DNA from: an uncultured Fibrobacter sp.
Lineage (GTDB): Bacteria > Fibrobacterota > Fibrobacteria > Fibrobacterales > Fibrobacteraceae
Reading direction: 5' to 3'
Length of the DNA stretch: 64,000 bases
Assembly: GCA_946414075.1 (NCBI GenBank)
Contig: CAMKNA010000001.1
Coordinates: 82,210 to 146,209, forward strand
A model generated the notes under the pieces. That model was not told the DNA's origin and did no database searches. It saw only the letters and a list, made by a program, of their open reading frames with translations. This document shows positions 35,265 through 36,471 of this stretch, piece by piece; within the stretch, counting starts at the first letter, position 1, and each line of letters opens with the position of its first letter. A program made the translations under genes and the position numbers.

Positions 35265-35338
35265 CGGAATATAGCTCAGCCTGGTAGAGCGCTTGCTTCG
35301 GGAGCAAGAGGTCGTGAGTTCGAATCTCGCTATTCCGA
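35265..35338 (+). tRNA. tRNA-Pro (anticodon CGG)
   Basis: CGGAATA...TATTCCG acceptor stem with A73; D-arm AGCTCAGCCTGGTAGAGC; anticodon stem CTTGC-TTCGGGA-GCAAG; T-loop TTCGAAT. Confidence 0.97.
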
Positions 35339-35339
35339 T

Positions 35340-35377
35340 AAAAAGAAGACCACCCTTCAGGGTGGTTTTCTTTTTAT
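35340..35377 (+). terminator. Rho-independent terminator of tRNA-Pro
   Basis: AAAAAGAAGACCACCC TTCA GGGTGGTTTTCTTTTT. Confidence 0.9.
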
Positions 35378-35380
35378 ACG

Positions 35381-35657
35381 CGGAGTAGCGAGACTTAAGA
35401 ACGAGCGACGTAGTCGTGAGTTCGACTGAATCGGCGATGAACGAAGTGAATATAGCCGATTCAGAGATTAAGCCGTAGGCTTAACCCAAAGGGCAAAGCC
35501 TGAATGTAATGAAGGCTTTGTCTAATCTCGCTATTCCAAGTCCTAACCGTACGCTGATTCCGGCTCTGGGGCCGGAATGACTTCTTAGCGAAGGGCAAGA
35601 ACTGAAGCGTAGCAAAGTTCTTGTCTAATCTCGCTATTCCGAGTCCAGGCTATTCCG
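35381..35657. repeat. tRNA-tail-derived repeat and hairpin array
   Basis: Inverted copy CGGAGTAGCGAGA (35381-35393); direct copies GTCGTGAGTTCGA (35413-35425), AATCTCGCTATTCC (35524-35537; 35627-35640), GCTATTCCG (35649-35657); hairpins between. Confidence 0.85.
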
Positions 35658-36471
35658 CCCCACCCCACCTTCGCTTGGGATTTGGGCAATGATCCTCGTG
35701 GCCATCGGGCCACACCCACACCTCGTCTGCAAAGGGGCACTCCGAAGAACTCCCATCGCAATCTATTCCAGCCACAGCACAGGAACCGTCGCGATTCTCG
35801 AAATACAGACTCCCTTCGCAGCGCACCCTGTCGGAATGCAGTCCCTGCCGCAACTGTCCCACCGCGCCTTCGGGCAAAGCAAACCTTTCCCGCAATTCTT
35901 GTGACGCGCAATCCAGAAAGACCACAGGATTCCACTTGATACGATCAATCCCGGCCTGTTCCGCCCACCGCAAAAGTTCCGGCGTTCGCAAGGCATTTTC
36001 CCGATGCAAAGTCACCTGCAGGGAAACGGAAGCCGTGCGCTTTCCCTCCTGTTCAAGGCGGCAGCGAGACTCCAGCAAGCGCCCCACACCTTCTTTCCAC
36101 TCGCCTTCGGTCAATCCGCCCATTTCGTAAGACAATGTGCTCACCTTAATATCACTGCATGCCGCAAGCAAGCTTTCCATTCCTGCGACAGTCCCCCACT
36201 TTCCAGGGAACGACCCATTGGTGGTCAGATTCATGGGAATTCCATATTCCCTACAAATATCCAACAGCTCGCTAAAATGGGAATACAGCAAGGGCTCCCC
36301 CATGGTGGAAGGAATCAGTTCCCGCACATCGGAATACTTGTCAACGGCCCGCCGGGCCACTTCAATGGGCATTTCGCCAAAGCCAGCGCCACAACCCCGC
36401 TGTTTCAAAAAACACAGCGGACAATGTAAATTACAAATGTCCGGATTTGTGAGCAGGGTCAGGCGTTTCAA
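35650..36471 (-). CDS. Radical SAM protein with C-terminal Cys-rich (SPASM-like) tail
   Basis: LTNPDICNLHCPLCFLKQRG (CxxxCxxC), MGEPLLYSHFSELLDIC, tail CPFADEVWVWPDGHEDHCPNP. Confidence 0.88.
   Translation of the reverse strand: MKRLTLLTNPDICNLHCPLCFLKQRGCGAGFGEMPIEVARRAVDKYSDVRELIPSTMGEPLLYSHFSELLDICREYGIPMNLTTNGSFPGKWGTVAGMESLLAACSDIKVSTLSYEMGGLTEGEWKEGVGRLLESRCRLEQEGKRTASVSLQVTLHRENALRTPELLRWAEQAGIDRIKWNPVVFLDCASQELRERFALPEGAVGQLRQGLHSDRVRCEGSLYFENRDGSCAVAGIDCDGSSSECPFADEVWVWPDGHEDHCPNPKRRWGGAE

Follow-up and report, generated by a model that had tools for sequence, protein, structure and literature searches.

A candidate RtT-like element trailing tRNA genes in Fibrobacter has arms matched to its own tRNA

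The window, a 64,000-nucleotide stretch of DNA from an uncultured Fibrobacter species, carries on its plus strand a gene for tRNA-Pro(CGG) (35265-35338; called by ARAGORN, with 68.2 bits from the Rfam tRNA model), the 3' end of which reads AATCTCGCTATTCCGA. The gene runs into a long palindromic, terminator-like hairpin (35338-35377, plus strand, inverted repeat I2) that a consensus scan called on the minus strand only. Directly behind the tRNA and its terminator lies a five-hairpin element on the plus strand (element 1, 35380-35537) that copies the 3' half of this host tRNA, followed on the same strand by a second, truncated copy (element 2) reaching 35642. Element 1 begins with a 5' arm (35380-35393), a near-complement of the tRNA 3' end that forms the 5' side of helix P1 and was placed by folding and by its register across 84 distinct elements. 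Next come hairpin 1 (35399-35425, direct repeat D17), with a 3' strand, GTCGTGAGTTCGA, equal to the 5' strand and loop of the tRNA T-arm; hairpin 2 (35426-35464), which encloses an ACGAAGT mini-hairpin and comprises helices 3 and 4 of the fold and covariation analysis; hairpin 3 (TTAAGCC GTA GGCTTAA, 35468-35484, helix 5 in the fold); hairpin 4 (CCC AAA GGG, 35485-35493, helix 6; family form CCCGAAGGG); and hairpin 5 (35494-35520, helix 7). A direct repeat of the tRNA 3' end (35524-35537) supplies the 3' side of P1. Element 2 retains hairpin 5 (35596-35623, identified from the sequence) and the directly repeated tRNA end (35627-35642), its left part being another palindrome. This palindrome (35557-35578) is GC-rich, has the arms ATTCCGGC/GCCGGAAT and occupies the place where the left part of element 2 was expected; similar ATTCCGGC...GCCGGAATGACG repeats were seen near other arrays (L047, L059, L077 and L078).

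The initial annotation had described two tandem hairpin units here, which are present in the sequence as written. The hairpins are real, while the units as delimited turned out to be only the last third (hairpins 4-5 and the tail) of two longer repeats. The perfect stems belong to hairpin 5 of element 1 (35494-35520, CAAAGCCT/AGGCTTTG) and of element 2 (35596-35623, CAAGAACT/AGTTCTTG), and the differing inner mini-hairpins, AT-GTA-AT and GC-GTA-GC, were likewise confirmed. The 26-nt 3' flank corresponds to the direct repeat 35518-35543 / 35621-35646 (family D1), whose two copies indeed differ at one position. This constant flank represents the 3' terminus of the neighbouring tRNA-Pro(CGG), where D1 has a third copy at 35317-35342. 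A search for the flank in the window's own genome found only the two copies.

The right part of the element is a direct copy of the tRNA half, interrupted within the T-loop (58/59) by four hairpins. The left end carries the T-arm/acceptor half in inverted orientation, so that it can splint both halves of the split copy through P1 and hairpin 1. Read as its reverse complement, the left end resembles the tRNA T-arm/acceptor half with an altered T-loop; at E. coli tyrT, for example, it reads about AAGGTTCTCACCCTTCCCC compared to AAGGTTCGAATCCTTCCCC in the tRNA.

Covariation was assessed in 34 distinct Fibrobacter copies, using a sequence-based alignment and a hand-written structure of 45 pairs. 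Over the whole structure 87% of cells pair, a measure on which a structure written from one member sequence is favoured over slid controls, and 29 pairs carry two-sided changes. The covariation score was 0.292, compared to 0.128 in shuffles (0/500 reached the observed value) and at most 0.111 in slid controls, and the region 35378-35660 folds to -117.9 kcal/mol compared to a shuffle mean of -81.2 kcal/mol (z -7.7, 0/200 shuffles as low); because the copies are related, the shuffles overstate significance, and relatedness inflates the fold and covariation statistics alike. In helix 7, 94.6% of cells are paired and all eight pairs (8/8) show two-sided changes. The arms therefore do not vary independently, and the proposal in the initial annotation that the stems co-vary, as selection for structure or a copying mechanism would leave them, gains support.

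We also found that the element tracks the tRNA it follows. Pairing of the 5' arms with their own 3' copies reached 654 of 840, compared to a mean of 581 and a maximum of 608 when partners were swapped (1000 shuffles), and the difference persisted when one element per distinct tail was used (173 vs 153, 0/5000 shuffles). In addition, the T-arm strand of the element agrees with its own tRNA (51 of 66, compared to 31.6 after shuffling; 0/2000; 11 distinct tRNA contexts). Tyr, Ser, Pro and Arg tRNAs, as well as tmRNA, are followed by similar elements, each resembling its own tRNA.

Searching with R1, a covariance model made from the Fibrobacter copies only, matched element 1 at 35384-35536 with 112 bits, this sequence being itself among the 34 in the model, and truncated element 2 at 35543-35639 with 25.4 bits. 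Within Fibrobacterota, the search space that the initial annotation had suggested, R1 matched 92 of 168 genomes, 91 of the 92 belonging to the window's own family, and homologous units were found in 78 of the 80 genomes of the genus. R1 matched none of the sampled members of one genus of this family (12/12 lacking it); a tRNA-Pro query was recovered in 111/111 family genomes searched. The element occurs widely in the genus and is often arranged in tandem units of ~200 nt, each repeating the terminator, the element and the tRNA end. Of the 22 R1 matches in four genomes, 21 lay behind a same-strand tRNA or in an array there, the remaining one being at a contig start, and one genome (G064) has the element behind Pro, Ser-CGA and Gly tRNAs. 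In the stretches around tRNAs that were compared from the window's own genome, comparable structures trail tRNAs Gly-GCC, Gly-CCC, Arg-TCT, Arg-ACG and Glu-TTC. As R1 matches only the two Gly sites among these, the Arg and Glu structures may be something other than the R1 element. We additionally observed an R1 match of 30.2 bits in a Lachnospiraceae MAG (L153, 613-746), where the 600 bases upstream are without a tRNA.

To describe the wider distribution, we used a landmark pattern of TGAGAAC, GTTCGA and CCCGAAGGG, which includes no acceptor sequence, GTTCGA itself being T-loop sequence. Applied to genomes from 85,462 species, it recovered 69 stretches. Besides Fibrobacter, their sources are gamma-, zeta-, delta- and alphaproteobacteria, with one Rickettsiales MAG standing for the alphaproteobacteria. 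Most matches lie 49-79 nt behind a tRNA or deeper in an array, and after most of these the 3' end of that tRNA is repeated. Two lie behind tmRNA (L192 and L199), and at L199 two units exceed the Rfam RtT cut-off. Two matches with no tRNA nearby (L146 and L181) were set aside as probably due to chance, and a match in a Treponema MAG (L164) was not accepted as evidence for spirochaetes, as it is near-identical to the Fibrobacter Ser element and mis-binning is likely.

The anatomy closely resembles that of RtT RNA (RF00391). Both show, in the same order, an inverted arm, hairpin 1 ending in GGTTCGA, hairpins 2 and 3, CCCGAAGGG, hairpin 5 and a copy of the tRNA 3' end, and both are placed behind tRNAs as tandem units. 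Moreover, the two are linked by models in both directions. R1 finds the repeats of E. coli tyrT at 45.4 bits (E 3e-12 in 221 kb; E-values from R1 are rough), so that the covarying secondary structure of the Fibrobacter copies is common to the E. coli units, and R1 also matches Ser- and tmRNA-linked proteobacterial copies. Conversely, the Rfam RtT model matches the Fibrobacter Ser element weakly (30.7 bits) and, in a whole-genome search, hits 22 of 80 genus genomes at E<=0.01, with a best score of 37.6 bits; the gathering score of 45 bits was reached in 0/80. The ten RtT-matched Fibrobacter loci that were fetched all have tRNA-Ser(CGA) just upstream (10/10), and among 14 control genomes E. coli alone matched. 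The same model reaches several of the proteobacterial pattern matches at its cut-off; the repeats of the E. coli tyrT/tyrV operon are annotated as rttR, an ncRNA, and E. coli RtT behind tRNA-Ser is annotated already. Unlike the RtT system, the Fibrobacter tRNAs here lack an encoded CCA; the Fibrobacter hosts are Pro, Ser-CGA and Gly tRNAs, and hairpin 2 is longer, with its inner mini-hairpin. At tyrT no terminator separates tRNA and unit, whereas E. coli Ser loci have one. Because the RtT cut-off was tested and missed, we name the Fibrobacter element RtT-like only and do not assign it to RF00391. Weak Rfam matches to RNAI, sX4, AaHKsRNA82, MicX, a plastid UTR and others were all below cut-off and were rejected, those to sX4 and the plastid UTR being located on the tRNA itself. 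A literature search on Fibrobacter tRNA hairpins returned nothing relevant.

Units of this kind vary in their presence. At the E. coli serW locus (infA-serW-clpA), strain A37 has the order tRNA-terminator-element-tRNA end-terminator, compared to tRNA-terminator alone in an O157 strain. Most of the listed E. coli strains match the A37 locus at 87% cover with ~176 nt less, as the empty form predicts, and strain ST38 has 181 nt more, as predicted for an extra unit. Many genomes lack the unit, as do most E. coli serW copies, indicating that it is dispensable there. Arrays also differ in copy number. In the serX array of E. coli J3, one unit is cut back to uninterrupted GGTTCGAATCC, and three Fibrobacter loci, in genomes G032 and G065 (L051 and L052) and G073 (L045), contain an extra near-complete tRNA-Pro copy whose T-loop continues straight into the hairpin block; these extra copies are broken tRNAs, with the intact tRNA downstream. 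Both the J3 product and those of G032 and G065 are expected from recombination through the T-arm.

Such loci recall tRNA-integrating islands with a tyrosine recombinase, and the 3' ends of tRNAs often serve as integration sites. The tRNA 3' end is directly repeated on either side of the element, as islands repeat it at their far side. The filled E. coli allele lies between direct repeats composed of tRNA end and terminator, and the genes behind the Fibrobacter arrays vary. The tRNA fragments could accordingly be functionless attachment-site scars of lost islands, by-products of ordinary unequal recombination. Scars would, however, lack the five-hairpin order common across phyla, the compensatory changes and the inverted tRNA half, and the unit itself, unlike an island, is a non-coding 150-200 nt with conserved structure and with no integrase inside the unit. 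Because the stems covary, we give this explanation very little credence.

The first ORF behind the array, read by eye at 19 arrays, is on the opposite strand in 13, and the hairpins are strong, as would suit a terminator or attenuator block shielding the tRNA from a convergent downstream gene; an attenuator role has been suggested for rtT-like BIME elements (PMC2965389). Yet each unit is already preceded by a separate terminator-like hairpin, and in the longer arrays of relatives every unit brings a version of it along. Insulation, moreover, requires neither tRNA-fitted arms nor five ordered hairpins with the GAGAAC, GTTCGA and CCCGAAGGG landmarks, and we consider this role highly improbable. 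A link between rtT and BIMEs has been reported (PMC2965389) and REP is listed within rttR (PMC12306157). BIME/REP palindromes are, like the element, short, palindromic, intergenic and repeated, but the element differs in its fixed place and orientation behind tRNAs and in arms that fit the local tRNA.

The main and serious rival to a reading as RNA is a selfish non-coding DNA palindrome. Such an entity would need its hairpins in single-stranded DNA, either to be copied or to insert at the 3' ends of tRNAs; the stems would stay perfect through fold-back copying, and any RNA would arise only incidentally. Stem change in the Fibrobacter alignment is mostly two-sided Watson-Crick replacement (165 two-sided cells), G-U pairs make up just 4-5% of predicted pairs, and GNA tri-loops, which form very stable DNA mini-hairpins, are numerous. 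Patchy presence, tandem amplification, the exchange of hairpin blocks and a left arm that has to be rebuilt to suit each tRNA would also fit such an entity. The strand comparison gave 27 G-T vs 32 A-C cells. Against a palindrome of this kind, the copies examined all share the orientation of their tRNA, the sense strand was more stable than its complement in 28/40 and 48/60 elements, members from E. coli and Actinobacillus are detected RNAs, no linked enzyme was found and the landmark pattern had no match in viral contigs. We therefore treat the selfish palindrome as a tentative explanation that is on balance unlikely. A broader proposal, which we regard as rather speculative, is a cross-phylum class of tRNA-parasitic elements that would re-template both arms from the local tRNA or tmRNA and spread through a folded single-stranded intermediate inserting at the T-loop.

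The explanation we favour, with reasonable though far from complete confidence, is that the element is an RtT-like, tRNA-trailing structured RNA of ~150 nt, whose gain and loss would proceed by recombination through the tRNA 3'-end repeats. The folding molecule would be the tRNA-sense strand; the RNA would arise when transcription reads through the tRNA terminator and would be released by processing, as reported for E. coli RtT. As a terminator-like hairpin precedes the element and no promoter-like site was found, expression in Fibrobacter is putative; these two points, together with the dispensability of the unit, count against an RNA function. By analogy with the E. coli and Actinobacillus RtT RNAs, and given the fixed orientation and better sense-strand folding, an RNA function appears plausible. 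RtT members give Northern signals in Actinobacillus (PMC4986893), and a passage of the same paper, citing Bosl and Kersten 1991, makes a link to amino-acid limitation. The Fibrobacter RNA may act as a tRNA 3'-end mimic, probably under amino-acid stress, and its units would come and go by recombination via the tRNA 3'-end and T-arm repeats.

RtT RNA has been an E. coli curiosity, little studied since 1991. This analysis adds the Fibrobacter copies, the reciprocal matches between the two models and the anatomy of a splint whose arms fit the tRNA. An RtT-like architecture that recurs in nearly all genomes of the genus, follows several different tRNAs and has arms fitted to the local one raises the general question of how a non-coding unit stays matched to tRNA genes and what role it has there. 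The covariation makes stem-swap tests designable, and E. coli strains with empty and with filled loci offer ready pairs.

Finally, a second hairpin module (GGCGAGTGTCGCG ... CCGAGCCGAAGCCG) was seen in arrays of several genomes (L064, L067, L083 and L084), and a similar module lies behind tRNA-Arg(TCT) in the window's own genome (L016). Hairpin modules seem to be common to different tRNA sites. In G064, we also observed a tandem array of three complete tRNA-Lys(CTT) genes (L090) with a repeat of ~225 nt.
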